DNA of 64,000 nucleotides from Actinomycetota bacterium (lineage in GTDB: Bacteria; Actinomycetota; Actinomycetes; Propionibacteriales; Propionibacteriaceae). Shown one piece after another: positions 136 through 54,556 of this stretch. The stretch lies in the NCBI GenBank assembly GCA_020161795.1, contig JAIUOR010000015.1:1-64000 (forward strand). The letters run 5' to 3'. Position numbers and translations under genes: made by a program. Positions within the stretch are counted from its first letter, which is position 1, and every line of letters starts with the position of its first letter. The notes under the pieces are model-generated. The model ran no database searches and had not been told where the DNA came from. It was given only the letters and a program-made list of their open reading frames with translations.

Positions 136-141
136 AGAGCC
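121..141 (+). mobile_element. Right inverted repeat (IRR) of the ISL3-family element
   Basis: Read on the minus strand from 141, the end begins GGCTCTTCACAATCCACGG. GGCTCTTC is a characteristic ISL3-family terminus. The next eight bases, AAATAACT (142-149), would be the 8-bp target duplication usual for the family; the left end is outside the window, so this is unproven. Confidence 0.8.
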
Positions 142-192
142 AAATAACTGCTCCAGCCGACAGATATGGCGGCGAGTCGGCACTATTTGGCA
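138..192 (-). repeat. 55-bp palindromic element, copy 1 (damaged by the IS)
   Basis: Right arm CACTATTTGGCA (181-192) faces a left arm whose surviving part AAATA (142-146) abuts the IS end. The flank CAGAAAGTG beyond the right arm is, read in reverse, the same CACTTTCTG that precedes copies at 20202 and 54502. The arm-to-arm span is 55 bp, as in the other copies, and an inner stem CCGAC/GTCGG (157-161/176-180) is present. The outer tail of the left arm has been replaced by IS sequence. Confidence 0.6.
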
Positions 193-243
193 GAAAGTGG
201 CGCGCTGCCGGCCAGCCGGCATCGGTGGCGTACAGTCGCGACC

Positions 244-1407
244 ATGGACTCCTCGCTGGCGCGCTGGCTGGTCGGGCCGGAGGGGGCAGAGGCGCTGGCG
301 GAGGCGTCCGCCTGGCCGGATCCGTCATCGCTGGCGGCAGCACAGGCGCTGCGTCGCCGCTGGACGCCGGAGCAGTCCGCGGCGGTCACCCGGCAGGTGG
401 AGTTGCGCAGGCGAGCGGTGGTCAAGTTCGGGGAGCGGGCGGCCGGGTTGTTCTTCACCTCCGACGGGCTGGAACAGGCCACCCGCGAGAACGTCGCACG
501 CTGGCGAGCTGCCCGGTTCGTCGCCGCCGGGGCAACGCGGGTGATCGACCTCGGCTGCGGGATCGGGGCGGATTCGCTGGCCTTCGCCGAAGCCGGGCTC
601 GAGGTGGTGGCGGTCGAGCTCGATCCGGCCACCGCCCTGCTGGCCCAGGCCAATCTGGGGGAGCGTGGCCGGGTGGTCGCGGGCGATGCGGTGGCGCTGG
701 CCGACGAGCTGCTTCGGCCGGGCGATGCCGTCTTCCTCGACCCGGCACGCCGTACCGCTCGCGGCCGCACCTGGAAGCTGGCCGAGGTCAGCCCGCCCTG
801 GAGCTACGCCGTCCGGTTGCTCCGGGAGCGGCTCGCCTGCGTCAAGGCCGCCCCCGGGCTGGGGTATGCCGAGATCCCGCCCGCCGTCGCCGTCGCGGGG
901 GTGGAGGAGCGCGGTGACTTCGTCGAACTCAGCCTGTGGTCCCCGAGCCCCGACTGGCCACCGGGATCGCGCTCGGTGGTACTGCTCCCGGAAGGCCTGG
1001 AGCAGAGGGTCGAGCAGCGAGCCGAGCCGGTGGTCGGCGGCGTCGGGAGATACCTCTACGAGCCGAGACCGGCGGTGATCCGGCTGAACGGGATCCCGCT
1101 GGTGGCCGAGCAGGTGGCCGGCTGGCGGCTGGCTCCCGGCATCGCCTACCTCGCCTCCGACACCCTGGTCGCCACGCCGCTGGCCACCGTCTTCGAGATC
1201 GAGCAGGTGCTGCCCCATGACGAGCGGACGCTGCGCGCCTGGGCGCGGGAGGCCGGGATCGGCACCCTGGAGATCAAGGTCCGCGGCCTGGAGGTCGATC
1301 CCGCCTTACTGCGGCGTCGCCTGAAGCTCTCCGGCCCCAATTCCGCGACCGTCGTCCTCACCCCGACCCCCGCAGGCGTCCGCGCGTTGGTCGCCCATCG
1401 GCTGTGA
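244..1407 (+). CDS. Class I SAM-dependent methyltransferase, THUMP-like
   Basis: The 387-residue protein has the SAM-binding motif I IDLGCGIGADSLAF at about residues 101-114, an acidic loop VAVELDP after strand 2, and FLDPARR later in the Rossmann fold. Its C-terminal third resembles the THUMP-like domain that accompanies this actinobacterial methyltransferase family; the substrate is unknown, RNA being a guess from the domain. The ATG at 244 is preferred over an upstream ATG at 166 because a -10 box TACAGT (231-236) lies exactly 7 nt before it, indicating a leaderless mRNA. The neighbour on the right is convergent, with 47 bp between stops. Confidence 0.75.
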   Translation: MDSSLARWLVGPEGAEALAEASAWPDPSSLAAAQALRRRWTPEQSAAVTRQVELRRRAVVKFGERAAGLFFTSDGLEQATRENVARWRAARFVAAGATRVIDLGCGIGADSLAFAEAGLEVVAVELDPATALLAQANLGERGRVVAGDAVALADELLRPGDAVFLDPARRTARGRTWKLAEVSPPWSYAVRLLRERLACVKAAPGLGYAEIPPAVAVAGVEERGDFVELSLWSPSPDWPPGSRSVVLLPEGLEQRVEQRAEPVVGGVGRYLYEPRPAVIRLNGIPLVAEQVAGWRLAPGIAYLASDTLVATPLATVFEIEQVLPHDERTLRAWAREAGIGTLEIKVRGLEVDPALLRRRLKLSGPNSATVVLTPTPAGVRALVAHRL

Positions 1408-1454
1408 GATCGCGATGACCGCCGCCTGCGCGGACGGATGGCCGCGAGCCGGTG

Positions 1455-2753: not shown

Positions 2754-2808
2754 TCCCGAGATTCTAGCCAGGTCGGATCCCGAAGCCGGGGCGCCGGCAC
2801 GCGGGTTA

Positions 2809-2849: not shown

Positions 2850-2853
2850 CGGT

Positions 2854-4928: not shown

Positions 4929-4958
4929 TCTGCTGCCCAGGCACTGCGGCGCATCCGA

Positions 4959-5029
4959 GCAGAAACCGGGTGGCTCAGGGTGGCTGAGTGGATAATCCAG
5001 TCGTCGGGGCGAAATCGCCCGGTTTCTGC
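4959..5029 (+). repeat. 71-bp hairpin repeat, copy A
   Basis: Perfect 12-bp arms GCAGAAACCGGG (4959-4970) and CCCGGTTTCTGC (5018-5029). The internal motif GTGGCTGAGTGGATA (4980-4994) is identical in copy B at the same offset of 21 bp. Confidence 0.75.
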
Positions 5030-5130
5030 GGAAAGAGCTGGTGAGAGGCGGGTCCGGCTGGACGATGGCAGCGGGCCGAGCTGCCAACACCGAGCTAAGC
5101 CGCAGTGACCGAGCCAAGCTGCCCTGACAC

Positions 5131-5201
5131 GCAGAATCCGGGTGATTCTGAGTGGCTGAGTGGATATTGCCGGCAGCCGGGCCGGATTACCCGGTTTGTG
5201 C
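5131..5201 (+). repeat. 71-bp hairpin repeat, copy B
   Basis: Arms GCAGAATCCGGG (5131-5142) and CCCGGTTTGTGC (5190-5201) pair imperfectly. Total length, arm length and the internal motif GTGGCTGAGTGGATA (5152-5166) match copy A, 172 bp upstream. Confidence 0.75.
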
Positions 5202-5300
5202 GGGCCATGGGTCGGGGCGAGGGGGAATCGTCCCCCAGGAGGATGACGTCTGCCCGTGAGGACGACGCGGCCTGGCGGGTGGCTCGCCTACCGTGGCGGT

Positions 5301-18371: not shown

Positions 18372-20150
18372 ATGACCACAGATCGTCTGCCCGGTATGGG
18401 CGCGTTGGTGAGCCCGGAGGGCATCGGCTTCCGTGTCTGGGCGCCGCATGCCGAGACCGTGTCGGTGGTGGGGACCTTCAACGACTGGGATGCCGCCGCG
18501 ACACCGCTTGCCGGGGAGGACGACGGCTACTGGTACGGGTTCGAGCCCAGGGCGAAGGTGGGCGACCAGTACCGGTTCGAACTGGTCAACGGCGAGCAAC
18601 GGCTGTCGAAGGTCGATCCGTACGCGGCCCAGGTGACCAACTCGGTGGGCAACGGGGTGATCTACGACCATGCCGCCTTCGACTGGGAGGACGACGACTT
18701 CGCCTGTCCCGCCCACAACGAACTGGTGATCTACGAGTTGCACGCCGGCACCTTCGCCACCACCGAGGGCGAGGTCGGCGATCTCTCCGAGGTCTCCGAC
18801 CGGCTGGATCACCTGGTCCGGCTGGGCGTCAACGCCGTCCAGATCATGCCGGTGGCCGAGTTCGCCGGCGACTACTCCTGGGGCTACAACCCGGCGCACA
18901 TCTTCGCGGTGGAGAGCGCCTACGGCGGGCCGGACGCGCTGAAGGCGCTGGTCAGGCATGCCCACCGGCGCGGCCTGGCGGTGATCCTGGACGTGGTATA
19001 CAACCACTTCGGGCCGTCCGACCTCAACCTGTGGCAGTTCGACGGCTGGAACCAGGACGACAAGGGCGGCATCTACTTCTACAACGACTGGCGCTCGGCC
19101 ACGCCCTGGGGCGACACCCGTCCCGACTACGGACGCGGTGAGGTGCGCCAGTTCATCCACGACAACGCGCTGACCTGGCTGGAGGCCTTCCACGTCGACG
19201 GGCTGCGGTACGACATGACGCCCTACATGCGCAGCGTGGACGCCACCACGACGAACATCCCCGAGGGCTGGAGCCTGTGCCGCTGGATCAACACCGACAT
19301 CCGGGAGCGGTACCCCGACAAGATCCTGATCGCCGAGGATCTGCACTCCGATCCGTCCGTCAGCTCGACCGGGCCCGAGGGCGGTGCCTTCCATGCCCAG
19401 TGGGATGCCCAGTTCGTCCACCCGGTGCGGGAGGCGCTGATCGTCGCCGACGACGCCTGGCGCTCCACCGCCGAGGTGGCCACCGCGATCGGCTACTCCT
19501 ACGGCGACGCCTTCGCCCGGGTGATCTACACCGAATCCCACGACGAGGTGGCCAACGGCCAGGCCCGGGTGCCGCAGGAGGTGGATCCGGAGGATCCCAC
19601 CGGCTGGTACTCCCGCAAGCGCTCGACCCTGGGCGCCGGGCTGGTGCTCACCGCGCCCGGCATCCCGATGATCTTCCAGGGCCAGGAGTTCCTGGAGGGC
19701 GGCTGGTTCCGCGACGACGTGCCGCTGGACTGGGATCTGGACGAGGAGTTCCACGGCATCGTCCGGCTCTACCGGGATCTGATCCGGCTGCGGCGCAATA
19801 CCGCTGGCAGCACGGCCGGTCTCACCGGGCAGGGCCTGCTGATCTTCCACAACAACGACGAGGCCAACCTGCTGGCCTTCCAGCGCTGGCGCGACCATGG
19901 GCCCGGCGATGACACCGTGATCGTGGCCAACCTCTCCCACGAGCCGCGCAGCGGCTACCGGATCGGGATGCCGGCGCCGGGGGAGTGGCGGCTGCTGTTC
20001 AACAGCGACGCGGCGGTCTACTCCGATGCCTTCGGCGACCATCCCAGCGCGGACCTGGTCGCCACCGACGACGACTACGACGGCCTGACCGCCAGCGCCG
20101 AGATCACGATCGCCGGCTACTCGCTGTTGATCTACAGCTGGGCCGGCTGA
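18372..20150 (+). CDS. GH13 branching-enzyme-like protein with CBM48
   Basis: The 592-residue protein has an N-terminal CBM48 domain (about 10-105; FRVWAPHAETVSVVGTFNDW) and a GH13 barrel with LDVVYNHFG (206-214), nucleophile D281 in HVDGLRYDM, acid/base E322 in LIAEDLH and D391 in TESHDEVANG. The ESHDEV motif and SWGYNPAHIFAVE are those of 1,4-alpha-glucan branching enzymes and the related malto-oligosyltrehalose trehalohydrolases; the former is favoured. It is shorter than classical GlgB (about 700 residues). Divergent from the RTX-like gene across 130 bp. No other glycogen or trehalose gene is adjacent. Confidence 0.8.
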   Translation: MTTDRLPGMGALVSPEGIGFRVWAPHAETVSVVGTFNDWDAAATPLAGEDDGYWYGFEPRAKVGDQYRFELVNGEQRLSKVDPYAAQVTNSVGNGVIYDHAAFDWEDDDFACPAHNELVIYELHAGTFATTEGEVGDLSEVSDRLDHLVRLGVNAVQIMPVAEFAGDYSWGYNPAHIFAVESAYGGPDALKALVRHAHRRGLAVILDVVYNHFGPSDLNLWQFDGWNQDDKGGIYFYNDWRSATPWGDTRPDYGRGEVRQFIHDNALTWLEAFHVDGLRYDMTPYMRSVDATTTNIPEGWSLCRWINTDIRERYPDKILIAEDLHSDPSVSSTGPEGGAFHAQWDAQFVHPVREALIVADDAWRSTAEVATAIGYSYGDAFARVIYTESHDEVANGQARVPQEVDPEDPTGWYSRKRSTLGAGLVLTAPGIPMIFQGQEFLEGGWFRDDVPLDWDLDEEFHGIVRLYRDLIRLRRNTAGSTAGLTGQGLLIFHNNDEANLLAFQRWRDHGPGDDTVIVANLSHEPRSGYRIGMPAPGEWRLLFNSDAAVYSDAFGDHPSADLVATDDDYDGLTASAEITIAGYSLLIYSWAG

Positions 20151-20201
20151 GCCCCCGCGCCCCGCTGCGCCCGCTGGCTGCCCTGCGTCACTGGAACTTT
20201 C

Positions 20202-20256
20202 TGCCACATAGTCCCTCTCCGCGACGGATATGTCGTGGGGCTTCGACTATGTGGCA
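20202..20256 (+). repeat. 55-bp palindromic element, copy 2
   Basis: Perfect arms TGCCACATAGTC (20202-20213) and GACTATGTGGCA (20245-20256), extended outward by CTTTC/AAAAG to 17 bp with one mismatch. An inner stem CCGCGAC/GTCGTGG closes on a GGATAT loop. It lies between the branching-enzyme gene and the gntR promoter. Copies also occur at 138 and 54502. Confidence 0.85.
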
Positions 20257-20286
20257 AAAAGCGCACCGGGCTGGCCGAGGCAGGTC

Positions 20287-20331
20287 TTGACATCCCGCTG
20301 CTTCCATGGTTAGTTAGTTGAGTAACTAACC
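20287..20331 (+). promoter_or_regulatory. gntR-ABC operon promoter and operator
   Basis: A consensus -35 TTGACA (20287-20292) is followed 17-18 bp later by TTAGTT/TAGTTA as -10. The -10 lies within a perfect inverted repeat GGTTAGTTA (20308-20316) and TAACTAACC (20323-20331) with a 6-bp centre. This is the type of operator expected for the YtrA-subfamily GntR regulator encoded next, so the operon is probably autorepressed. Confidence 0.8.
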
Positions 20332-20349
20332 AAGAAACCCGGGGTTGAG

Positions 20350-20721
20350 ATGGACGAAGGACGGGCGCTCTTCCTGCAGATCGCCGAGCAGATCGAGGAC
20401 TCGATCGTCGATGGCAGCCTGCCGGAGGAGACGCAGGCGCCTTCGACCAATGAACTCGCCGCCTTCTACCGGATCAATCCCGCCACGGCAGCGAAGGGAG
20501 TGAACATGCTGGTCGAGACCGGAGTCCTCTACAAACGTCGTGGTATCGGCATGTTCGTCGCCCCCGGTGCCCGCGAGGCATTGCTCGCCCGCCGCCGAGC
20601 CGGTTTCGCCGAGAGCTTCGTCCGTCCGCTGCTGGCTGAAGCCGCACGGCTCGGCCTCAGCGCCGGCGATGTGACGGCGCTGATCGTTTCCCATGCCCCT
20701 ATCGAAGGAGACCCCTCATGA
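20350..20721 (+). CDS. GntR-family transcriptional regulator (YtrA subfamily)
   Basis: A 123-residue regulator made of an N-terminal winged helix-turn-helix (ALFLQIAEQIEDSIVDGSL, then TNELAAFYRINPATAAKG) and a short C-terminal helical tail. The absence of a large effector domain and the linkage to an ABC-2 transporter define the YtrA type. It probably binds the palindrome 19 bp upstream of its start codon and represses its own operon. The stop overlaps the ATG of the ABC ATPase (ATGA), giving translational coupling. Confidence 0.9.
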   Translation: MDEGRALFLQIAEQIEDSIVDGSLPEETQAPSTNELAAFYRINPATAAKGVNMLVETGVLYKRRGIGMFVAPGAREALLARRRAGFAESFVRPLLAEAARLGLSAGDVTALIVSHAPIEGDPS

Positions 20722-36214: not shown

Positions 36215-37155
36215 GCCTGCGCAGCTACGACGGACCCACGCTGACCCTGGTGGTCAACCCCACCGCGGGCCGGGGCCGCGCCCGGCGCTGGCTGCCCAGG
36301 GTCGCGACAGCCTTGCTCACCGGGCTGCCGGGGGCGAACCTGCGGGTCTTCCAGACCACCTCCTTCGCCGATGCCCGGCTGCGGACCATCGCCGCCGTCG
36401 AGGGCGCCCGGCCGCAGGTCGAGGGGCGCCGCCCGGATGCCCTGCTGGTGATGGGCGGGGACGGCATGATGCACCTCGGCCTGAATGCCGCGGCCGGCAC
36501 TGACGTGCCGCTCGGCCTGATCCCGTCCGGGCGGGGCAACGACTTCTGCCGTGGCGCCGGCGTGCCGCGGGAGACCATGGCCGCGGTGCAGGCGATCGTG
36601 GAGGGAGTCACCCAGCGGATCGACCTGATGGAGGCCACCGGCGACCTGGTCGGGGGAGCCGAACGCCGCTGGGTGGGCTCGATCGTCTCCACCGGCTATG
36701 ACTCCCGGGTCAACCACCGCACCAACCAGCTGTCCTGGTCGCTGGGCGGGCTCAGCTACGCCTGGACGGCGCTGGCGGAGCTCGCCGTCTTCGAGCCGGT
36801 GCGCTACCGGCTGGTGATCGACGGGGTTCACCGCGAGCAGTCGGCGATGCTGGTCGCGGTCGGCAATGCGGGCTACTTCGGCGGCGGAATGTGGGCCTGT
36901 CCGCGGGCCGACGTCACCGACGGGCTGCTGGACGTCACCATCGTCAACCCGGTCAGCCGGATGACCCTGCTGCGGCTGCTGCCGGCCATGTTCACCGGCG
37001 GCTTCGTGAAGGATCCGGCGGTGGAACTGATGCGCGCGAGCGAGGTGATCGTCGACGGCGACGGGCTGTGGGGAATGGCCGATGGCGAGGATCTCGGCCG
37101 GGTTCCGCTGCACCTGCGCGCCGTCCCCGAACAGGTCAGCCTCTACACCTCCTGA
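36211..37155 (+). CDS. Diacylglycerol/lipid kinase family protein
   Basis: A 314-residue DagK-type kinase: N-terminal LVVNPTAGRGRARRWLP, nucleotide-binding GGDGMMHLGLNA, and GLIPSGRGNDFCRGAG. It phosphorylates a lipid such as diacylglycerol. Overlap with tatC (ATGA) suggests co-translation; in other actinobacteria a helY gene often follows, but here a 5.5 kb block intervenes. Confidence 0.88.
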   Translation: MSLRSYDGPTLTLVVNPTAGRGRARRWLPRVATALLTGLPGANLRVFQTTSFADARLRTIAAVEGARPQVEGRRPDALLVMGGDGMMHLGLNAAAGTDVPLGLIPSGRGNDFCRGAGVPRETMAAVQAIVEGVTQRIDLMEATGDLVGGAERRWVGSIVSTGYDSRVNHRTNQLSWSLGGLSYAWTALAELAVFEPVRYRLVIDGVHREQSAMLVAVGNAGYFGGGMWACPRADVTDGLLDVTIVNPVSRMTLLRLLPAMFTGGFVKDPAVELMRASEVIVDGDGLWGMADGEDLGRVPLHLRAVPEQVSLYTS

Positions 37156-37162
37156 GGAGGCC

Positions 37163-37196
37163 CTGCCTGGTGGAGCGCGGGCGCCCCACCAGGCAG
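37163..37196. terminator. Bidirectional terminator between lipid kinase and ald
   Basis: Perfect 11-bp arms CTGCCTGGTGG (37163-37173) and CCACCAGGCAG (37186-37196) lie between two convergent stop codons. No T-run on either side. Confidence 0.7.
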
Positions 37197-37201
37197 CACG
37201 A

Positions 37202-38320
37202 TCAGCCCAGCGCAGCCGCCAGCTCCTGGGCGGGCAGGTCGGGGAAGGCGTCCGCGACCGCCTGGTAGGTGATGGCGCCGTCGTGGGTGTTGATGCCCTT
37301 GGCCAGGGAGGGGTTGTCCTGACAGGCCTTGAGCCAGCCCTTGTCGGCCAACTGGATCGCGTACGGCAGGGCGGAGTTGGTCAGCGCCCAGGTCGACGTG
37401 CCCGGCACCGCTCCCGGCATGTTCGCCACGCAGTAGAAGATCGAGTCGTGCACCGTGAAGGTGGGCTCGTCATGCGTGGTCGGACGGGAATCCTCGAAGC
37501 AGCCGCCCTGGTCGATCGCCACATCCACCAGCACCGAACCCGGCTTCATCTGCGAGACCATCTCGTTGGTGACCAGCTTCGGCGCCTTCGCCCTGGGGAC
37601 CAGCACGGTGCCGATCACCAGATCGGCGGCCAGCACCTGCTGGCGCAGGCTCATCGCGTTCGAGGCCACGCCCTGCACCCGGTTCTGGTAGCGCCAGTAC
37701 GTCATGCGCAGCTTGTCCAGATCGGTATCCAGGATGGTCACGTCCGCGCCCATGCCGAGCGCGATGTTCGCCGCGTTCTGGCCGGCGACGCCGCCGCCGA
37801 GCACCACCACCTTGGAGTTGTTCACCCCGCCGATGCCGCCCAGCAGCAGCCCGCGTCCGCCGTTGGCCTTGCGCAGGTGTTCCGCGCCCACCTGGGGAGC
37901 CAGGCAGCCGGCCACCTCCGACATCGGGTACAGCAGCGGCAGCCCGCCGCCCGGCAGTTGCACCGTCTCGTAGGCGATCGCCGTCGTCCCGGCCCGCACC
38001 AGGGCCTCGGTCTGGGGACGATCGGCGGCCAGGTGCAGGTAGGTGAACAGCAGCAGGTCGTGGCGCAGGAACCCGTACTCGCTGGCGATCGGCTCCTTGA
38101 CCTTGATCACCATCTCCCCGGCGGCCCAGGTCGCTTCGGCGCCCTCGACCATCGTGGCTCCCTGCTCCTCGTACTCCGCGTCGGTGATGGCCGAGCCGAT
38201 ACCGGCGCCCGCCTGCACGAAGACCTGGTGGCCGCGGCGGGTCAGCTCCGCCACGCCGGCGGGTGTGATGGCCACCCGGTACTCGTTGTTCTTCACCTCG
38301 GTGGGAACGGCAATCTTCAT
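37202..38320 (-). CDS. ald: Alanine dehydrogenase
   Basis: A 372-residue NAD-dependent enzyme (alanine to pyruvate plus ammonium). It begins [20 protein letters not shown]; the NAD fold carries [22 protein letters not shown]. Full length. It is downstream of the permease and kynU genes on the same strand. Kynureninase releases alanine, so Ald here plausibly consumes that product. AAAGGACC precedes the ATG at a short spacing. Confidence 0.95.
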
Positions 38321-38356
38321 CGGGGAGGTCCTTTCTTGGCTTGATGGATGAGTAGC

Positions 38357-38476
38357 TCAGTCGGCGCTGCCGGAGCGCGTTGGGCCCTCGCTCGACGCCT
38401 CGGCCAGGTTGTCGTCGGCTTCCTGATCGGCCGCCAGTTCCGCGAGCTTGCGCGGACGCACCCGGATCCAGTATCA
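38357..38476 (-). other. In-frame continuation of the permease beyond its TGA
   Basis: After the TGA at 38476-38474 the same frame stays open for 38 codons (YWIRVRPRKLAELAADQ at the start, SGSAD at the end) to a second TGA at 38359-38357. The first residues complete the last membrane helix, and the basic RVRPRK then acidic tail is a normal permease C-terminus. The TGA therefore looks like a nonsense change in a gene of about 484 codons. Confidence 0.75.
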
Positions 38477-39811
38477 GACGCTGATCACGATGAGGAACGG
38501 GATGCCGAAGACCAGCGTCATGTTGAACGACGAGTCGGTGAACAGGGTGGTCAGCATGATCGCCACCATCAGGATCGCGCCGAGCCAGGTGCCGACCGGG
38601 TAGAACGGCAGCTTGTACTTCGGGGCCTGGCCGCGCTTGGCCAGGTCGCGACGGAAGAAGATGTGCGAGACGAAGATCATGAGCCAGGTGAACATGGCGC
38701 CGAACATCGACACCGCCATCATCACGGTGAAGGCCTGCTCGGGATTGATCACGTAGACCAGGGTCGCCACGGCGATGCCCAGGGCGGAGAGTGTCAGCGC
38801 GTTGACTGGGGCACCGTTGCCATGGACGCGGCCGACGAACTTCGGAGCATCACCGCTGCGCGAGAGGCTGAAGGCCATGCGCGTCGAGGTGTACAGCTGG
38901 CTGTTCATGGCCGACAGGGCGGCGACGATGACGACGAAGTTGATGATCGAATCCGCGAACGGGATGTTCAGCACGCCCATCACCGTGACGAACGGGCTGC
39001 CGCCCTCCAGGATCTTGCTGGTCGGCGCGATGGCCACGATCAGGGCCAGCGTGCACATTTCGAAGATGAAGAGGCGGAGGATGACGGTGCGGAAGGCCTT
39101 CTTGGTGGCGACCTCCGGCTCCGCGGCCTCGCCCGCCGCCACTGCCACCATCTCGATCGACAGGTAGCTGAAGATCGACACGATCACGGCGATCCACATT
39201 CCCCAGGCGCCGTTCGGCATGAAGCCGCCCTCGGCGGTGTAGTTGTGGAATCCGAAGTCGGGGCTCAGCTGCCCGAAGACGGCGATCGCGGACATGATGA
39301 TGAAGGCGATGATCGCGAAGACCTTGACCGAACTCAGCCAGTACTCCAGCGTGCCGAAAGCATGCACGTTGAACATGTTGACCGCGATCAGGGCGGCGGA
39401 GAATCCGAGGATCCAGATCAGGCCGGGCACGTCGGGGAGCCAGAAGGCCATGTAGGTGCCGATGGCGGTGACCTCGGTGCCGACCGCCAGCACCAGGCAC
39501 GACCAGTAGGAGATGCGGACGAGGAAGCCGGCCATCGGGCTGATGTAGTGCTCGGCGTAGGCGCCGAACGAGCCCGAGGTGGGGTGCTGGATGGTCATCT
39601 CCGCCAGGGCGGCCATCAGCAGCAGGGCGATCAGCGCGCCGATGGCGTAGCTGACGATCACGCTGGGGCCGGCGTAGCTGATGGCGAACTTCGAGCCGAG
39701 GAAGAGGCCGGTGCCGATGGCGCCGCCGAGGGCGATCATGCCGATCTGTCGTGAGGTGAGTGCCTTTCTCAGGCCCTGTTCGCGTTGCTGGATCTTGTCG
39801 AAACTGCCCAT
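38474..39811 (-). CDS. APC-family amino acid permease, truncated by in-frame TGA
   Basis: The 445-residue product has the family start LRKALTSRQIGMIALGGAIG, the GLFLGS motif of helix 1, and twelve predicted helices, the last being cut at IPFLIVISV. It belongs to the amino-acid permease group that includes GABA, aromatic and proline transporters. Position between kynU and ald suggests kynurenine or tryptophan import (inference). Codon 446 is TGA followed by 38 in-frame codons, so either the protein has lost the end of helix 12 and its tail, or the TGA is a sequence error or is sometimes read through. Its base composition seems less GC-rich than its neighbours. Confidence 0.85.
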   Translation of the reverse strand: MGSFDKIQQREQGLRKALTSRQIGMIALGGAIGTGLFLGSKFAISYAGPSVIVSYAIGALIALLLMAALAEMTIQHPTSGSFGAYAEHYISPMAGFLVRISYWSCLVLAVGTEVTAIGTYMAFWLPDVPGLIWILGFSAALIAVNMFNVHAFGTLEYWLSSVKVFAIIAFIIMSAIAVFGQLSPDFGFHNYTAEGGFMPNGAWGMWIAVIVSIFSYLSIEMVAVAAGEAAEPEVATKKAFRTVILRLFIFEMCTLALIVAIAPTSKILEGGSPFVTVMGVLNIPFADSIINFVVIVAALSAMNSQLYTSTRMAFSLSRSGDAPKFVGRVHGNGAPVNALTLSALGIAVATLVYVINPEQAFTVMMAVSMFGAMFTWLMIFVSHIFFRRDLAKRGQAPKYKLPFYPVGTWLGAILMVAIMLTTLFTDSSFNMTLVFGIPFLIVISV

Positions 39812-39864
39812 TTATGGGCTCCCTTCTAGGGGACGACAGCCATTGTCGTCGTGTGGTGAGTTAC

Positions 39865-39912
39865 GAGGGAATAGGTGAGAGAACCAGGAAAGGGGGAGAG
39901 GGAATAGGTGAG
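39865..39912 (-). repeat. 15-bp direct repeat in the kynU-permease gap
   Basis: GAGGGAATAGGTGAG occurs at 39865-39879 and 39898-39912, a period of 33 bp. It lies in the 120-bp gap between kynU and the permease. Role unknown; operator half-sites or slippage products are possible. Confidence 0.6.
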
Positions 39913-39931
39913 GAAACGTGGAAGCGCGGGG

Positions 39932-41194
39932 TCAGGTGACGGCACCGCGGCGGCGACGCTCCTCGGTGTCCCAGGCTCCGGTGGCGAGGATGTCGGCCAG
40001 GATGGCGACAGCGTCCCAGACGTCGACGTAGCGCAGGTACAGCGGGGTGACGCCGATGCGGATGACCTCGGGCTCGCGGTAGTCGGGGATGACACCGCGG
40101 GAGACCAGCATGTTGACCACCGCGTAGCCCTCGGGGAGCCGGAAGCTGACGTGGCTGCCGCGGTCCCTGTGGCTCCGGGGCGTGATCAGGGTCAGCGGGT
40201 GGTCGCCGCAGGTGGCCTCGACGAGCTCGATGAACAGGTCGGTCAGCGCCAGTGACTTCCGGCGAAGTTCTGCCTGATCGACCTCCGCCGCGATCTTGAA
40301 GCCGCATTCGGCCATGGCCATGGAGGTGATCGGCTGAGTACCGCACAGGAACCGCTGGATGCCGTCGGCCGCGTCGTACTTCGGCGACATCTCGAAGGGT
40401 GCGCGGTGGCTCCACCACCCCGACAGAGGCTGCCAGAACCGGTTCTGGTGCGCCTCGCTGACCCAGATGAAGGCCGGTGCCCCGGGGCCGCCGTTGAGAT
40501 ACTTGTAGCTGCAGCCGATGGCGAAGTCGACGTTGCAGGCGGACAGTTCGATCGGCAGGGCGCCTGCGGTGTGGCACAGATCCCAGATCATCAGGGCGCC
40601 GGCGTCGTGGACCTGGGCGGTTACCGCCGCCATGTCCCACAGCGCTCCGGTGCGGTAATTCGCGTGGGAGAGCGCTACCGCCGCCACCTGCTCGTCCAGC
40701 AGATCCTCGAGGGTGTCGGCGTCCTGGCCGATCAGTTTGATTTGGTACCCGCGATCCAGGAAGGCGGTCATTCCCTCGATGATGTAGAGATCGGTGGGGA
40801 AGTTGTCCCGCTCCGAGATGATCACCCGGCGTCCGGGGTTGTCGGCCTCCTGGATGGTCAGGGCGGCGGCGAGTGCCTTGAACAGGTTGATCGACGTGGT
40901 GTCGGTCACCACTGTCTGGCCGGCGTGGCCGCCGATGACCGGGGAGAGCAGGTCGCCCAGGCGGGACGGCATGTCGAACCAGCCGTGCTTGTTCCAGGAG
41001 CCGATCAGGCCCTGGCCCCACTCCTGGGTCACCACCTCGGCTGCCCGCGCGGGCGCATCGACGGGCATGGCTCCCAGCGAATTGCCGTCCAGGTAGATGA
41101 CGCCCTCGGGGATGACGAATCTCTCCCGGAAGGGGGCCAGCGGGTCTTGCAGGTCGGCCCGAGCGCAGTCCTCTCGGGTGGCGAACGTTGTCAT
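39932..41194 (-). CDS. kynU: Kynureninase
   Basis: A 420-residue PLP enzyme splitting kynurenine to anthranilate and alanine. It has IYLDGNSLGAMP near the N-terminus, DLCHTAGALP with the PLP-contacting Asp, and the Schiff-base K231 in GCSYKYLNGGPG. Length is normal. GGAGG stands 9 nt upstream of the ATG. It is divergent from the Lrp-type regulator across 195 bp and heads the kynU-permease-ald set. Confidence 0.95.
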   Translation of the reverse strand: MTTFATREDCARADLQDPLAPFRERFVIPEGVIYLDGNSLGAMPVDAPARAAEVVTQEWGQGLIGSWNKHGWFDMPSRLGDLLSPVIGGHAGQTVVTDTTSINLFKALAAALTIQEADNPGRRVIISERDNFPTDLYIIEGMTAFLDRGYQIKLIGQDADTLEDLLDEQVAAVALSHANYRTGALWDMAAVTAQVHDAGALMIWDLCHTAGALPIELSACNVDFAIGCSYKYLNGGPGAPAFIWVSEAHQNRFWQPLSGWWSHRAPFEMSPKYDAADGIQRFLCGTQPITSMAMAECGFKIAAEVDQAELRRKSLALTDLFIELVEATCGDHPLTLITPRSHRDRGSHVSFRLPEGYAVVNMLVSRGVIPDYREPEVIRIGVTPLYLRYVDVWDAVAILADILATGAWDTEERRRRGAVT

Positions 41195-41389
41195 GTGCGA
41201 AGTCCTCCGTTCTGTGACGATGACCGCCGATGACGCGCTCGTGGCGCCGTCGCGGTATCAATCCCGCGGTGTCTCCCGATTCGGGTTATACGACGATGTC
41301 TTGACACGAAGTTTCGGAAGACGACTAAATAGTCATGTAAACATCGGTGAATCACTACTATCCACGAATCTTCAGCGGAAGAGAGAGAA
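41195..41389. promoter_or_regulatory. Divergent kynU / lrp control region with candidate operator
   Basis: This 195-bp region is clearly AT-richer than the rest of the window. Toward lrp, TTGACA (41301-41306) is followed 18 bp later by CTAAAT (41325-41330). The palindrome GACTAAATAGTC (41323-41334) overlaps that -10. Toward kynU, a TATAAC-like -10 is at 41290-41285 on the minus strand. An Lrp-type autoregulator bound at the palindrome could control both directions. Confidence 0.6.
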
Positions 41390-41878
41390 ATGGCGCAACT
41401 AAATTCTGCGCTGATAGCGAATCGGCACACCGAGCCGAAGCTCGTTCGGCTGGATGCCATCGATCGGCGCCTTCTGTCGGATCTGGTCAAGGACGCACGC
41501 ACCCCGAACAATCTGCTGGCCAGCCGGGCCGGGGTGGCGCCGTCCACCTCGTTGACCCGGATCAGGCGGCTCGAGGAGGAGGGTGTGATCAAGGGTTACC
41601 ACGCCGATCTCGACCTGGGCCTGCTCGGGATGAGCGTCCATGCCCTGCTGCAGTTGCGGGTGCAGGTGCATGCCCGGCCGCGGATGCTGGCGGTGGCCCG
41701 CCAGTTGCGTGCCGAGCCGAACGTGCTGGGCGTCTTCCTCATCGCCGGCGATCGGGATCTGGTGGTGCACGTCGTCTGCGAGTCGACCGATGATCTCAAG
41801 AACTTCATCAACGAGAAGATCGGCACCAACCTCGACATCGCCAGCTCCAATACCAATCTGGTCTTCGAAGAACTGTGA
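41390..41878 (+). CDS. Lrp/AsnC-family regulator, probably of kynurenine genes
   Basis: A 162-residue regulator with an N-terminal helix-turn-helix (LDAIDRRLLSDLVKDARTPNN, ASRAGVAPSTSLTRIRRLEE) and a RAM ligand-binding domain (LLQLRVQVHARPRM; GVFLIAGDRDLVVHVVC). It has a 20-residue N-terminal extension. Divergence from kynU parallels KynR in proteobacteria, an Lrp-type sensor of kynurenine; the same role is inferred here. AGAGAGA precedes the ATG. Confidence 0.88.
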   Translation: MAQLNSALIANRHTEPKLVRLDAIDRRLLSDLVKDARTPNNLLASRAGVAPSTSLTRIRRLEEEGVIKGYHADLDLGLLGMSVHALLQLRVQVHARPRMLAVARQLRAEPNVLGVFLIAGDRDLVVHVVCESTDDLKNFINEKIGTNLDIASSNTNLVFEEL

Positions 41879-41885
41879 GGTCACC

Positions 41886-42680
41886 ATGGCTGTACCAGGC
41901 GGCGAACCCGGCCTGAGCCTGGCCGAGGCATCCGGACCGGTCGAGACGGTCGGCTACGGCCAGGACGCCGCGCAGGTCTACGACGTGCGCCTGCCCGTGG
42001 CGGGTACGCCGGCCCGGCCCACCGTGGTGCTGATCCACGGCGGCTTCTGGCGGGCCCGCTACGACCGCGCGCACCTGGCGGCGATGGCGCAGCACCTCGC
42101 CGACACCGGGCATCCCACCGCTGTGCTGGAGTACCGGCGGCCGGGCATGCTCGGGAGCCGGTATCCAGCGACGCTGGCTGACCTGCGCGACGGCGTGGCG
42201 GCGGTCGCGCGCGATCCCCGCCTCCCGGAGCCGCGGGTCGCGGTGGGGCACTCGGCCGGCGGGCAGCTGGCGATCTGGGCGGCCTCGCAGCCTGACGCCG
42301 CCGGCCGGCTGGCGGCTGTGGTGAGTCTGGCCGGCTGCGTCGATCTGGGGTTGGCGGCCGAACTGGATCTCGGCGACGGAGCCGTGGCGGACTTCCTCGG
42401 CGGGAGCCCCGACGAACTCCCGCGGGCCTACGCCGATGCCGATCCGGTCCGGTTGGCGCCGTGCCCGGTTCCGGTGGTGCTGGTTCACGGCGAGGCCGAC
42501 CCGGAGGTCCCGATCTCGGTGAGCGAGTCCTATCTCGCGCTGGCGGCCGGTGGGTCGGTGAGCCTGGTGCGCCTGCCCGGGGTCGGGCACTACGAGCTGA
42601 TCGATCCCACCGACCCGGCCTTCGGATCTGTCACCGAAGCGATCGACCGGTCGGTCGACCCGGTCGGCGCGGCGGGTTGA
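41886..42680 (+). CDS. Alpha/beta hydrolase, probable kynurenine formamidase
   Basis: The 264-residue hydrolase has oxyanion motif HGGFWRARYD (51-60), nucleophile S123 in VAVGHSAGGQL, an Asp in VHGEADPEVP, and the catalytic His in GVGHYELID. The HGGFW motif resembles the HGGYW of eukaryotic-type arylformamidases (AFMID). With kynU and an Lrp regulator next door, N-formylkynurenine hydrolysis is the best guess. It begins 7 bp after lrp with a GAGGT ribosome binding site. No tryptophan 2,3-dioxygenase gene is in the window. Confidence 0.75.
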   Translation: MAVPGGEPGLSLAEASGPVETVGYGQDAAQVYDVRLPVAGTPARPTVVLIHGGFWRARYDRAHLAAMAQHLADTGHPTAVLEYRRPGMLGSRYPATLADLRDGVAAVARDPRLPEPRVAVGHSAGGQLAIWAASQPDAAGRLAAVVSLAGCVDLGLAAELDLGDGAVADFLGGSPDELPRAYADADPVRLAPCPVPVVLVHGEADPEVPISVSESYLALAAGGSVSLVRLPGVGHYELIDPTDPAFGSVTEAIDRSVDPVGAAG

Positions 42681-42700
42681 GGCACCCGGGCTGAGGCCGG

Positions 42701-44839
42701 TCAGTCCTCGAGCGGCGCGACATCGACGACGCCGCGGCGGATCCGGGCGATCGCCTCGCGGCAGGTGTCGCGCAGGTCGCCGTCGGTCGCGTCGGCGACC
42801 TGGCCGGCCAGATCCATCACCTGGCGCGCCCAGCGGACGAAGTCGCCGGCGGTGAGTCCGGAGAGGTCGAGCACGTCGGCCAGCGGGAAGCCGGCCGTCC
42901 AGTGGTGGATAGCCTCGGCGAAACCGATGTCGGGCTCGGTGGGGGAGGGCAGCCGGTGGTCGCGTTCGGTCAGCGACACATGCCGCCAGATGCCGCGCAG
43001 GGCACCCTGGGCCCGCTCGCTGGCCCGGTCGGGCATCCGGGAGGGACGGCGGTCGCCTCGCGACTCGTAGACCAGGCTGGAGATCACGGCCGCGAGCTGG
43101 GGCGCGCTGAGCCGGTCGAAGACGCCTTCCCGGATCGCCTCGGCGGTGACCAGGTCGAGTTCGGAGTAGATCCGGGTCAGCATCCGTCCGGCGTCGGTCA
43201 CCTGCTCGCCGCCCTCGGTGAGATAGCCCATCGACTCCAGCACCGAGCAGATCCGGTCGAACCGCACCGCGATGGTGTTCGTGCGGGGCAGCCGGGTGCG
43301 TTCGATCTCGTTGCGCCGGCGCTTGGCGACCGTCCGCGCGGCCAGCCGCCGGTCGGCCTGGTACTGGGCGAAGGACTGCTCCAGCAGCCCGCGGGCCCGC
43401 TCCCGCCCGACCGTCGCGACCAGGTTGACCGCCATGTTGTAGGTCGGCTTGAAGCTGGAGTGCAACGGATAGGTACGCCGGGAGGCCAGCCCGGCCAGCG
43501 CGCGCGGGTCGAGACCCGGCTGCCAGCACACCACCGCGTGGCCTTCGACGTCGATGCCGCGCCGCCCGGCCCGTCCGGTGAGCTGGGTGTACTCGCCGGC
43601 GGTGATGTCGGCATGGCTCTCGCCGTTGTACTTCACCAGCTTCTCCAGCACCACGCTGCGGGCCGGCATGTTGATGCCCAGCGCCAGCGTCTCGGTGGCG
43701 AACACCACCTTGACCAGCCCAGCGGCGAAGCCCTCCTCGACGGCCTCCTTGAAGGCCGGCAGCAGGCCGGCGTGGTGGGCGGCGATGCCGGCGCGGAAGG
43801 CGACGGCGAATCCCCGGTACTCCAGCGCCGCCAGGTCGTCGGTGCTCAGGCCCTGCACGTGCCGTTCGGCGATCTCGTCCAGGGCGGCCCGCTCGGCCCG
43901 ATTGGTCAGCTGGAGACCGGAGTGCATCAGCTGGCCGACGGCGGTGTCGCAGCCCTGCCGGGAGAAGATGAAGTAGATCGCGGGCAGCAGGTTCTCGGCG
44001 GCCAGCCGCTCGACCGTCCCATCCCGGCGCGGCACCAGGTGCCGGCTGCTCTGCTGCCGGGAGTGCGCCGCCCCGCCGCCGTACCGGCCCGAGCCGTAGG
44101 CGACCGCGCGCTTCCCGCGGCCGGATTGGCCACGCGGACGGCGGCCGTCGTCGCGCAGCCCGCGCGCTTCCTGCTTGGCCAGCTGCAGCAACTCCGGGTT
44201 CACCTCGGGCGGGGACGCGAACAGGTCGACCAGCCGCCGTCCGACCGCGACGTGCTGGAACAACGGGACCGGACGCCGCTCGCTGACCACCACCTCGACC
44301 CCGCCGCGGACCTCGTCCAGCCAGTCGCCGAACTCCTCGGCGTTGCTCACCGTCGCCGACAGCGCCACCAGCTGCACGGAGGGAGCCAGCGAGATGATGA
44401 CCTCCTCCCAGACCGGCCCGCGGAACCGGTCGGCCAGGTAGTGCACCTCGTCCATCACCACGTAGCCGAGCCCCTTCAGGGTGCGCGAACCGGCGTAGAT
44501 CATGTTCCGCAGCACCTCGGTGGTCATCACCACCACCGGCGCCTCGCCGTTGATCGTGGTGTCGCCGGTCAACAGCCCTACCCGGTCCTCGCCGTGCCGG
44601 GCGACCAGGTCGTGGTACTTCTGGTTGCTCAGCGCCTTGATCGGGGTGGTGTAGAAGCACTTGCGTCCGGTCTGCAACGCCAGGAAGACGGCGAACTCGC
44701 CCACCACGGTCTTGCCCGCGCCGGTCGGCGCCGCAACCAGCACCCCGCGCCCGGCGGCGACATGCTCGCAGCCGGCGACCTGGTAGTCGTCGAGGGCGAA
44801 GGGATAACCGGCCCGGAAGGCCGCGAGGGTCTCATCCAC
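42701..44839 (-). CDS. helY: HelY-type superfamily 2 RNA helicase lacking the arch insert
   Basis: The 712-residue Ski2-like helicase has Walker A APTGAGKTVVG (37-47), DEVH in VVMDEVHYLADR, SAT in LVALSATVSNAEEF, and motif VI QLTGRAGRRGID. The C-terminal DSHCT-like region (about 526-712) is also clear. Compared with mycobacterial HelY (about 900 residues), around 200 residues between the helicase core (ending SFAQYQADRR, about 500) and RFDRICSVLE (526) are missing, replaced by about 25 basic residues. The GTG start follows a -10 box TAGGTT by 6 nt. Its stop is 20 bp from the convergent hydrolase stop. Confidence 0.85.
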   Translation of the reverse strand: MDETLAAFRAGYPFALDDYQVAGCEHVAAGRGVLVAAPTGAGKTVVGEFAVFLALQTGRKCFYTTPIKALSNQKYHDLVARHGEDRVGLLTGDTTINGEAPVVVMTTEVLRNMIYAGSRTLKGLGYVVMDEVHYLADRFRGPVWEEVIISLAPSVQLVALSATVSNAEEFGDWLDEVRGGVEVVVSERRPVPLFQHVAVGRRLVDLFASPPEVNPELLQLAKQEARGLRDDGRRPRGQSGRGKRAVAYGSGRYGGGAAHSRQQSSRHLVPRRDGTVERLAAENLLPAIYFIFSRQGCDTAVGQLMHSGLQLTNRAERAALDEIAERHVQGLSTDDLAALEYRGFAVAFRAGIAAHHAGLLPAFKEAVEEGFAAGLVKVVFATETLALGINMPARSVVLEKLVKYNGESHADITAGEYTQLTGRAGRRGIDVEGHAVVCWQPGLDPRALAGLASRRTYPLHSSFKPTYNMAVNLVATVGRERARGLLEQSFAQYQADRRLAARTVAKRRRNEIERTRLPRTNTIAVRFDRICSVLESMGYLTEGGEQVTDAGRMLTRIYSELDLVTAEAIREGVFDRLSAPQLAAVISSLVYESRGDRRPSRMPDRASERAQGALRGIWRHVSLTERDHRLPSPTEPDIGFAEAIHHWTAGFPLADVLDLSGLTAGDFVRWARQVMDLAGQVADATDGDLRDTCREAIARIRRGVVDVAPLED

Positions 44840-52045: not shown

Positions 52046-52079
52046 ACCCGTTTCTTGGGTGATGTGGCAGGCTTGCCCG

Positions 52080-54476
52080 GTGACCGTCGAGACCCAGCCC
52101 AACCCGGGCCTGACCGCCGCCGAGGTCGAACAGCGGATCCGCGCCGGCCAGGTGAACACCCAGCCGCCGCGCTCGGGTCGCTCCACCTGGGACATCGTCC
52201 GGGCCAACGTCTTCACCCGGATCAACTTCCTGCTGATGGTGCTGTTCGTCCTGGTGATGACCACCGGTCAGATCCAGAACGCGCTGTTCGGCTTCCTGAT
52301 CATCATCAACTCGGCGATCGGCATGGTCCAGGAGTTGCGCGCCAAGAAGACCCTGGACAACCTGGCCGTGGTCGGCGAGGGAAAGCCGCGGGTGCGCCGC
52401 GACGGCGTGGTCACCGAGGTGATCCGCGACGACATCGTGCTGGACGACCTGATCGAGATCGGCCCCGGCGACCAGATCGTGGTGGACGGCGATGTCATCG
52501 AGGCCTCCTACCTGGAGGTTGACGAGTCGCTGCTGACCGGCGAATCCGACCCGATGGAGAAGAACCCGGGCGACCAGGTGATGTCCGGCAGCTTCGTGGT
52601 GGCCGGTGTCGGCACCTTCCGCGCGACCCGGGTCGGCAGCGATTCCTACGCCGCCCAGCTGACCGCGGAGGCCAGCAAGTTCTCCCTTGTGAAGTCGGAG
52701 TTGCAGCAGGGAATCAACAAGATCCTGCGGCTGATCACCTGGCTGCTGATCCCGGTCGGGATCGCCACGATCTGGGTGCAGTGGAACCAGCACGAGGAAT
52801 GGCAGGAGAAGGTGCTGGCCACCGCCGGCGCGCTGGTGCCGATGGTGCCCGAGGGCCTGGTGCTGCTGACCGCGCTGGCCTTCGCGGTGGGCGTGGTGCG
52901 GCTGGCCCGGGAGAACGTGCTGGTGCAGGAGCTACCGGCCATCGAGGGCCTGGCCCGGGTGGACGTGGTCTGCGCCGACAAGACGGGGACGCTGACCGAG
53001 AACGGCATGAAGTTCGGCGAGCTCGAGCCGGTGGACGATACGACGGCGGATCGGCTTCGCGCGGTGGTCGCCCAGCTCGCCGCCGCCGACCCGCGTCCGA
53101 ACGCCTCCATCCAGGCGCTGGCCGCCGAGATGCCGCTGAGCGGCCCGGCCTGGTCGGTGACCGGCCTGGCGCCGTTCACCTCGGCCAAGAAGTGGTCGGG
53201 GGTGTCTTTCGACGGCGAGGGCGACTGGGTGATCGGCGCGCCGGACGTGCTGGCCGGCGGCAGCGACGCGGCTGCCCGCGCCGAGGAGATCGGCGCGAGC
53301 GGACGCCGGGTGCTGCTGCTGGGCCGCAGCGAGGTACCGGTGGACGACCCCGCGGCGCCCGGGAAGGTGACACCGGTCGCCCTGCTCGTGCTGGAGCAGA
53401 AGGTCCGTCCGGAGGCCCGCGACACTCTGGCCTACTTCGCCGACCAGGACGTGACCGTCAAGGTGATCTCCGGCGACAACGCGGTCAGCGTCGGTGCGGT
53501 GACCCGATCGCTGGGAGTGGATGGCGACCAGGTGATGGACGCCCGCAAGCTGCCCACCGACGAAACCGCCTTCGCCGACGAAGTGGCCGGCCACAATGTC
53601 TTCGGCCGGGTCACCCCGCAGCAGAAGCGGCAGATGGTGAGCGCGTTGCAGTCCCGCGGGCACACCGTGGCGATGACCGGCGACGGCGTGAACGACGTGC
53701 TGGCGATCAAGGATTCCGACCTCGGCGTCGCGATGGGCACCGGTGCCGCGGCCACCCGCTCGGTGGCCCAGCTGGTGCTGCTGGACGACTCCTTCGCCAC
53801 CCTGCCGCACGTGGTGGCCGAGGGCCGCCGGGTTATCGGCAACATCGAGCGGGTGGCCAACTTCTTCCTCACCAAGACCCTGTACTCGGTGGCCTTCGCG
53901 CTGCTGGTGGCGGCCTGGCGGCTGCCCTTCCCGTTCGTCCCGATCCACATCTCGGTGGTCGGTTGGTTCACCATCGGCATCCCGGCCTCGATCCTGGCGC
54001 TGGCGCCGAACGCCGCGCGTGCCCGTACCGGCTTCCTGCAACGGGTGATGCGCTTCGGGATCCCGGCCGCGATCGTGATCTCGGTGACCACCTTCATCAG
54101 CTATCTGCTCATCCTGCCGCTGTCGGACGGCCGGGTGACCAACCAGGTCTCCACCGCGCTGCTCGTCACCCTGCTGTGCGGCGGCGCCTGGGTGATGATC
54201 ACCATCAGCCGCCCCTACGAGTGGTGGAAGATCCTCATGATCGTCGGCTGCATCGGGGCGACCATCGCGGTCTTCCTGGTGCCGCTGGAGCTGAACGTGG
54301 GCACCCTGCACCTGCAACTGCAGGAGGTCTTCTACATCGACACCGGCAATCCGGCCATGATGAGCACCGGCTTCCTGCTGGGCGGCATCGCGATCGTGCT
54401 GGTCGAGGTCGTCTGGTGGGTCGCCGGCCACGTCACCCACGGCGAGCGCCGCCGGCTATGGTCCTCCGGCAAGTAG
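52080..54476 (+). CDS. ctpE: P-type cation ATPase, CtpE-like
   Basis: The 798-residue protein has TGES in SLLTGESDP, helix 4 motif VPMVPEGLVLL, phosphorylation D300 in CADKTGT, and the hinge GDGVNDVLAIKDSDLG. Lack of N-terminal metal-binding domains, size and the PEGLVLL helix match mycobacterial CtpE, a calcium-uptake pump. GTG 52080 follows a near-consensus CAGGCT box by 6 nt; an in-frame ATG at 52062 is the alternative. Cation specificity is inferred. Confidence 0.85.
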   Translation: MTVETQPNPGLTAAEVEQRIRAGQVNTQPPRSGRSTWDIVRANVFTRINFLLMVLFVLVMTTGQIQNALFGFLIIINSAIGMVQELRAKKTLDNLAVVGEGKPRVRRDGVVTEVIRDDIVLDDLIEIGPGDQIVVDGDVIEASYLEVDESLLTGESDPMEKNPGDQVMSGSFVVAGVGTFRATRVGSDSYAAQLTAEASKFSLVKSELQQGINKILRLITWLLIPVGIATIWVQWNQHEEWQEKVLATAGALVPMVPEGLVLLTALAFAVGVVRLARENVLVQELPAIEGLARVDVVCADKTGTLTENGMKFGELEPVDDTTADRLRAVVAQLAAADPRPNASIQALAAEMPLSGPAWSVTGLAPFTSAKKWSGVSFDGEGDWVIGAPDVLAGGSDAAARAEEIGASGRRVLLLGRSEVPVDDPAAPGKVTPVALLVLEQKVRPEARDTLAYFADQDVTVKVISGDNAVSVGAVTRSLGVDGDQVMDARKLPTDETAFADEVAGHNVFGRVTPQQKRQMVSALQSRGHTVAMTGDGVNDVLAIKDSDLGVAMGTGAAATRSVAQLVLLDDSFATLPHVVAEGRRVIGNIERVANFFLTKTLYSVAFALLVAAWRLPFPFVPIHISVVGWFTIGIPASILALAPNAARARTGFLQRVMRFGIPAAIVISVTTFISYLLILPLSDGRVTNQVSTALLVTLLCGGAWVMITISRPYEWWKILMIVGCIGATIAVFLVPLELNVGTLHLQLQEVFYIDTGNPAMMSTGFLLGGIAIVLVEVVWWVAGHVTHGERRRLWSSGK

Positions 54477-54501
54477 CTCTCACCGTGACCGGTGCACTTT
54501 C

Positions 54502-54556
54502 TGCCACATAGTCGCCCCGCGCGGCAGATCTGCCGCGGTGATGCGACCATGTGGCA
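54502..54556 (+). repeat. 55-bp palindromic element, copy 3
   Basis: Arms TGCCACATAGTC (54502-54513) and GACCATGTGGCA (54545-54556) differ at one position. The inner stem GCGGCAGA/TCTGCCGC is a perfect 16-bp palindrome. Arm spacing is identical to the copy at 20202. It lies between the convergent ctpE and leuB genes and could act as a terminator. Confidence 0.85.

Follow-up and report, generated by a model that had tools for sequence, protein, structure and literature searches.

A dispersed palindromic DNA family of Propionicimonas encloses a predicted Vsr-like nuclease gene

Introduction

The window analyzed here, 64,000 nucleotides at positions 1 to 64,000 of contig JAIUOR010000015.1 (assembly GCA_020161795.1, Propionibacteriaceae), contains three dispersed palindromic elements of one family, which we call F1. 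All three have the same arm-to-arm span of 55 bp. What keeps such a spacing constant at three separate places of a genome? A preliminary description of this DNA had considered a family resembling repetitive extragenic palindromes (REPs) or miniature inverted-repeat transposable elements (MITEs), as well as a structured RNA or terminator, and had named a REP-associated tyrosine transposase (RAYT) as a possible partner. Our analysis leads to a different partner: F1 is fairly probably the dispersed DNA companion of a small nuclease gene, with which it would form a REPtron-like module that recognizes and spreads its own palindrome.

Structure and Distribution of the F1 Family

The window belongs to a Propionicimonas genome, termed G000; F1 is also carried by G009, a sister species of the same genus. 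The window copies are located at 129..203 (copy 1, minus strand), 20191..20265 (copy 2, plus strand) and 54491..54565 (copy 3, plus strand). The preliminary description had placed the three palindromes and their 55-bp span correctly; aligned with more members of the family, the element proves to be a longer near-palindrome of 75 bp that has the half-site GCACTTTCTGCCANATA at each end. The outer motif CACTTTCTGCCANATA is matched exactly by the left outer half-site of copy 3 (54495..54510, plus strand) and by the intact outer half-site of copy 1 (184..199, minus strand), and with one and two mismatches, respectively, by the left (20195..20210, plus strand) and right (20248..20263, minus strand) outer half-sites of copy 2. 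The conserved features of F1 are the two mirrored half-sites and the distance separating them.

Copy 2 lies between an alpha-amylase-family gene on the left (stop at 20150) and a GntR-family gene on the right (start at 20350). Copy 3 follows an E1-E2 ATPase-family gene, whose stop is at 54476, and has an isocitrate/isopropylmalate-dehydrogenase-family gene as its convergent neighbor (54570-55640, minus strand). In copy 1, the right outer arm turns into other sequence where the tail of an ISL3-family transposase frame abuts (1..135, plus strand; PF01610, E 0.00024, 21.5 bits at a Pfam cut-off of 23). Since the ISL3-like frame ends there and the arm changes to other sequence, the replacement looks like the end of an insertion, and an ISL3-family element has likely inserted into this palindrome at the contig start.

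Three models were used for the family search: R1 was built from 13 own copies, R2 from all 72 copies of G000 and G009, and R3 from five diverged relatives of a second genus. R1 yields 51 strand-wise matches in G000 and 92 in G009, which represent 26 and 46 distinct copies, respectively. A 15-letter arm pattern matches 15 times in G000, its reversed form not once. The earlier assumptions that these are not random hairpins and that they form a dispersed REP- or MITE-like family are thus supported. Over the 72 copies the unit length is 73-76 bp, and in a scan of spans from 40 to 140 bp the dominant span accounts for 21 of 25 pairs in G000 and for 43 of 50 in G009.

Beyond the two carriers, R1 finds no copy at E 0.001 in the 28 other genomes of the genus, some of which are incomplete, such that two of 30 are positive. 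Partial and weak R2 matches (E 0.002-0.006) occur in Propionicimonas G005, G012, G042 and G045 and, up to E 0.01, also in some other genera; two of the weak matches were inspected, are not whole palindromes, and the group was taken as chance. By contrast with these partial matches, R2 detects diverged but full-length relatives in a second genus, where R3 finds copies in six of seven genomes (18-35 strand-wise matches each). This version has the arm CATTCACTGGCAGATA or a close variant in an unchanged layout. A pattern scan of 84,980 named species, from which the own genome was possibly left out, returned 26 stretches, 23 of them from one Propionicimonas metagenome-assembled genome (JAPUEM01). 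The remaining three (Rheinheimera, a gammaproteobacterium, and a Lachnospiraceae bacterium) were taken as chance.

The window copies are all intergenic, as had been stated before, and a simple codon-usage gene caller puts 69 of the 72 family members outside called genes in loci that are 87% coding. Neighboring genes could be classed for 67 copies and are tandem in 43, convergent in 11 and divergent in 13 cases. Between tandem genes, 39 of 43 copies are closer to the upstream stop than to the next start (median 18 versus 91 bp). Nearly all matches of the half-site pattern in both genomes (113 of 116) sit in full elements; therefore, no larger element with F1 ends showed up.

The region of one copy (54485-54571) has no DNA match in phage and plasmid collections, an exact-pattern scan of viral contigs gave no hit, and none of the 48 pattern stretches from a further viral-contig search was confirmed. 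Carriage by phages or plasmids was rejected after these searches.

The Enclosed Nuclease Gene

At locus L063 of G000, two F1 copies enclose one gene, whose protein matches MTES_1575 over the cut-off (E 1.3e-9) and AbiEi_4 weakly. Taken alone, two copies this near to each other might have met by chance; the second genus, where the arrangement recurs, speaks against that. Eight proteins of this kind were compared with domain models. PF18741 (MTES_1575 REase, cut-off 38.2) scores 38.4 in the G000 C3 protein and 17.9-37.5 in the seven others, while PF04480 (DUF559, cut-off 20.6) is above the cut-off in three proteins (20.8, 22.0 and 33.2) and reaches 15.1-18.2 in five. The residues D, ExDS and HHTGE are invariant in all seven proteins that were aligned. 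The predicted product of the flanked gene is an AbiEi-like N-terminus fused to a Vsr-like nuclease domain of the MTES_1575/DUF559 type.

A profile made from the flanked proteins of G000, G121 and G122 has matches in seven of 37 genomes of both genera, namely G000 (two genes), G005, G009, G120, G121, G122, and G124. Within the second genus, the nuclease genes of G122 and G124 have its F1 version at either end, as does that of G121, where one of the two copies is partial; in G120 a copy occupies one side and the other holds two N letters. In G005, a different palindrome (CAGAAACCGCCTCCC, span 68) stands on each side of the gene. A second family, F2 (span 73-74), stands on both sides of the second G000 nuclease (G000:C20) and of the G009 nuclease (G009:C70), the latter having no adjoining F1 copy. 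Presence of F1-type elements and of the nuclease is associated among the 37 genomes (Fisher P 8e-5), a result to which we give little weight because one genus supplies most positives and the G009 nuclease is of the F2 kind. The G122 nuclease has no plasmid match at 1e-20; two unannotated phage records hold distant relatives (33.0% and 28.9%).

Further Families and Generality

F2 is dispersed, too. In 466 kb of loci from G000 and G009 we counted 16 copies, of which the two nuclease loci account for six and the window for two; none was found in the sequence searched from other Propionicimonas (126 kb), G005 (11 kb) and the second genus (152 kb), and the reversed motif gave no match. Its dominant span accounts for 15 of 18 pairs between 40 and 140 bp. 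The window copies, a second family absent from the list of the preliminary description, occupy 4958..5030 (73 bp, motif CGCAGAAACCGGGCA .. TGCCCGGTTTCTGCG) and 5130..5202, both without assigned strand and both in the intergenic region between Cpn60-family and ABC transporter genes. At locus L100 of G009 (14-330), three tandem F2 copies lie 122 bp apart.

On the level of the family Propionibacteriaceae, a profile of seven nuclease proteins matches in 60 of 198 genomes and 19 of 29 genera. We assembled 33 nuclease loci (the eight initial ones, 23 among the best profile matches, and two further G133 genes) and applied a pair test, which compares the four arms of one palindrome per side and is passed with a score of 72 or more. 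This threshold was chosen after the scores had been seen, with the lowest pass at 73, the highest failure at 68 and the highest control at 64. The test was passed by 20 of the 33 nuclease loci and by none of 29 controls (19 leuB, 10 RAYT), five of which offered no candidate pair. Among the 25 loci not used in forming the idea, 14 pass. Cross-locus pairings reached the threshold in 15 of 1056 cases, including pairs of loci with a common motif. Likewise, near-perfect palindromes with at least 14 of 16 matching arm letters adjoin 26 of the 33 nuclease genes, compared to one of the 29 controls.

Modules were measured at 20 loci and are 939-1234 bp long. A matched pair at a nuclease locus usually has its own motif and span, and G133 has three nucleases with three motifs. 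A different arrangement was seen at L276, where the gene lies between palindromes of equal span (61) and unlike motifs (1351-1411 and 2301-2361).

Copies away from the gene exist for seven of nine motifs sampled, including F1, its second-genus version and F2; the samples comprised 400 kb each for G062, G157 and G133, and 104 kb for G005. The G062 motif has five copies off its home locus, all with span 69, and four more at home, the dominant span covering nine of nine pairs between 40 and 140 bp. Off the home loci of G133, there is one copy of motif b (three and four arm mismatches) and two of motif c. The G157 motif has two dispersed copies at a single place, nearly identical to each other. 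These two palindromes (L328, 12896-15109) are about 2 kb apart, with similarity extending into one flank, and enclose frames that by eye resemble a TetR regulator and an oxidoreductase. Reversed-motif and cross-genome controls for dispersal gave no match wherever they were run.

Over 20 loci, similar proteins tend to go with similar arms (Mantel r 0.50, P 0.0005 for residues 1-45). Different palindromes accompany the nucleases of G000 and G005, which are 62% identical. At one orthologous locus, the G000 and G009 nucleases are 59.5% identical, compared with 88% and 94% for the neighboring frames (best tblastn matches).

Divergence and Movement of F1

Orthologous F1 copies in G000 and G009 were assigned by reciprocal best neighbor genes. 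This gave 11 pairs, eight with both neighbors as adjacent orthologues, two with partial support, and one (L067/L126) weak. Sampled neighboring proteins of the two species are 92% identical, and four-fold sites differ by 27%. Within the variable columns of F1, 143 of 220 cells differ between orthologous copies (65%), as compared to 63.6% between non-orthologous ones. The motif columns differ in 56 of 275 cells, a number inflated by two out-of-register pairs; without these, 113 of 180 variable and 23 of 225 motif cells differ. In a gapped comparison, shared ancestry is still weakly apparent (P 0.025); of the 11 pairs, nine score higher in the kept orientation, one scores lower, and one is tied.

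Presence and absence of F1 differ between relatives at individual junctions. Several relatives without the element at the junction of copy 3 have both stops a few bases apart (read by eye), and for one G009 copy the junction measures 205 bp in G009 versus 35 bp in the window. At the copy 3 junction of G005, the nearest relative, other repeats of the form CGTCATCCCGGGCTTGYCCCGGGATCTCGGGTG were observed to the left of the leuB-like gene (L169). In addition, the gene order of G009 L098 relative to window positions 37152-42704 breaks at a G009 F1 copy.

A Module that May Spread its Palindrome

Taken by its anatomy, the locus points to a selfish or regulatory DNA module, apparently undescribed; among the matches listed from a mainly open-access literature, no publication links such nucleases to dispersed palindromes. 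A complete module would span about 0.94-1.23 kb, with a gene of some 270 codons between two palindromes, about 100 bp from the first and about 25 bp from the second. A multimer of the nuclease would bind its own palindrome, which is roughly 60-80 bp long, via outer and inner half-sites in mirror symmetry, which would be some 20 bp apart in F1, and the AbiEi-like winged-helix N-terminus would recognize these half-sites. The enzyme would then nick or cut the DNA there, and repair of such cuts would have multiplied the palindrome, either by itself or together with the gene; the resulting REP- or MITE-like copies would mostly have settled just after stop codons. Motif and nuclease would diverge together, and separate families in one genome, such as F1 and F2 in G000, would therefore be possible. 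Both recognition and spread we infer from the arrangement of genes and repeats.

More tentatively, and with confidence just short of even, we propose a widespread and undescribed class of such modules, in which a winged-helix Vsr-like nuclease multiplies its own palindrome of about 60-80 bp by cutting and repair, without a transposase; enzyme and palindrome would diversify together into many families, up to three of which were seen per genome. If true, dispersed bacterial palindromes would be connected with one more enzyme class, unrelated to RAYTs, enzymes and their long DNA sites would be at hand as pairs diversified by nature, and a role would be suggested for a nuclease family with relatives in almost a third of the Propionibacteriaceae genomes. 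The spread of small palindromes without a transposase of their own would be testable with a single protein of some 270 residues and a site of 75 bp.

Several findings weigh against a module that spreads its palindrome. No F1-type nuclease was detected in G009 despite its 46 well-conserved F1 copies, nor in G123 and G126, where copies of the F1 version are present, and the two distant phage-borne relatives have no palindrome pair. The pair test was failed by 13 of the 33 loci, though R3 locates both flanking copies at one of them (L263) and one copy at another (L261). No dispersed copy was found for G133 motif a in 400 kb or for the G005 motif in 104 kb. Regarding recognition by the N-terminus, AbiEi_4 (cut-off 25) scores below the cut-off in seven of the eight proteins (15.1-21.1 bits) and gives no match in the eighth, whose N-terminus is missing as read; arm similarity correlates about equally with the rest of the protein (Mantel r 0.48, P 0.0005), and the N-terminus is therefore not singled out. 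Concerning movement, F1 copies within one genome are at most 88% (G009) or 84% (G000) identical, and because near-identical copies are absent, no recent movement is visible. The columns of G009 are nearly independent of one another; its top pair is not unusual, being reached by 79 of 300 column-wise shuffles, and the spread of identities is slightly wide (3/300). In G000, the corresponding values are 18/300 for the top pair and 0/300 for the spread; these copies share some structure, part of which is due to linked neighboring bases and gap placing. No target-site duplication was identified, the flanks being too diverged between the species.

The strongest competing explanation, unlikely as we judge it, is that the host keeps old palindromes as fixed regulatory or architectural sites, used by a nuclease-related or other protein, with each copy under selection; they might, for instance, act as road-blocks in both directions at gene ends or serve a defence nuclease as marks of self. 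The orthologous pairs fit this, since they differ in the variable columns like unrelated copies while most of them keep the motif columns, and so do the position near stop codons of tandem-gene copies and the persistence of F1 in G009 without its type of nuclease. On the other hand, just two of 30 genus genomes have F1, the convergent and divergent placements fit no single regulatory role, and two copies also enclose the nuclease genes themselves. Spreading by the nuclease is the better explanation for the flanked gene and the patchy distribution, selection by the host the better one for the constraint at gene ends. Both could apply in sequence, with the palindromes spread first and kept later.

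Vsr-like enzymes include homing endonucleases. A homing-type module, whose nuclease gene inserts into the palindrome as its recognition site and thereby becomes enclosed, with the dispersed palindromes spread by another process, is a distinctly more doubtful explanation. The Vsr-like domain, the position of the gene between two copies of near-equal span, and a weak match of the G005 protein to a homing endonuclease (E 0.028) speak for it. Such an insertion is at odds with a whole palindrome, not a half, on each side of the gene, and with the differing sequences of the two flanking palindromes.

Symmetric DNA rather than Structured RNA

Selection for pairing in a structured RNA or an intrinsic terminator, the other option of the preliminary description, appears very improbable as the reason for the conservation. 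In its favor, RNA folding is strong for copies 2 and 3 (z -6.9 to -9.3 versus dinucleotide shuffles, both strands), though only weakly above the shuffles for copy 1 (z -2.2 to -2.5), and the copies tend to sit just past stop codons. The compensatory stem changes reported earlier do exist within the three window copies, but they do not extend to the family: the consensus fold of the 13 own copies has eight pairs, none with two-sided change. Pairing along the full palindrome was examined in 41 of the 46 G009 copies, five of other length being excluded. It amounts to 74.9% of cells versus 75.4% in shuffled data, with 15 two-sided pairs versus 14.7 after shuffling. The N of TGCCANATA is free on either side, column 17 being unpaired with column 60 in 24 of the 41 copies, and pairing also fails in 20-31 of them at the column pairs 21-25. 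Moreover, none of 4227 Rfam models matches in the window at the gathering score, and 13 copies lie between divergent genes. Because arms and span are conserved while the stems lack covariation, we regard F1 as a symmetric DNA element, not a structured RNA, and a probably protein-bound one.

Comparison with Known Systems

REPtrons are RAYT genes flanked by GTAG-type REPs, and their description (PMC3733652) shows two similarities to the present loci: an enzyme gene between two palindromes that are also dispersed, and several repeat families with repeat-specific enzymes per genome. F1, with its 26 and 46 copies, also shares the dispersed, intergenic and palindromic character of REPs. In contrast to REPtrons, the enzyme here is a predicted Vsr-like nuclease with an AbiEi-like N-terminus instead of a tyrosine transposase, and the palindromes measure roughly 60-80 bp with mirrored half-sites. 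An origin of F1 as REP or REPIN elements of a RAYT (Y1 transposase) can practically be discounted and, barring a RAYT hidden by gaps in the assemblies, already stands refuted for these genomes: although dispersed intergenic palindromes flank an enzyme gene as in REPtrons (PMC3733652), the partner suggested earlier was searched for as Y1_Tnp (PF01797) and is found in neither G000 nor G009, yet in 14 of 28 other genus genomes, F1 units are longer than REPs (20-40 bp), the consensus ends are GCAC..GTGCA with no GTAG or CGTC end, and the flanked gene is a nuclease gene. F1 is thus not a REP/RAYT system, nor does it correspond to any described RNA; its mode of action would be that of a REPtron.

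In TIRtrons, long terminal inverted repeats flank RAYT-like genes. They are similar in that some flanking repeats also form genomic repeat families (PMC3733652); they differ in the enzyme, and each flank here is a whole palindrome. AbiEi and Rv2827c bind 23-bp inverted repeats in pairs (PMC7319586). The N-terminal domain of the flanked proteins is weakly similar to AbiEi; unlike AbiEi it is fused to a predicted nuclease domain, and the candidate sites not only flank the gene on either side but also occur at other places of the genome. The C-terminal domain of the flanked proteins matches PF18741 and PF04480, i.e., MTES_1575/DUF559. The MTES_1575 domain was described within a very large multidomain protein, and the accessible part of that description does not mention palindromes (PMC3710099).

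MITEs are short, non-coding, mostly intergenic, and symmetric, and F1 has all of these properties. It differs from them in that no known transposon with F1 ends was identified, no target duplication was found, and near-identical copies are absent. Whole palindromes are common to the dispersed copies and the nuclease module, the autonomy of which is putative.

Other Features of the Window

Just upstream of the GntR-family gene (20350), an inverted repeat around GGTTAGTTAGTTGAGTAACTAACC occupies 20295-20344 and may be the operator of this gene. A further inverted repeat of 19 bp with 95% complementarity (AACGATCCCTGAGCCTGGG / CCCGGGCTCAGGGATCGTT) is located at 56795-56834.

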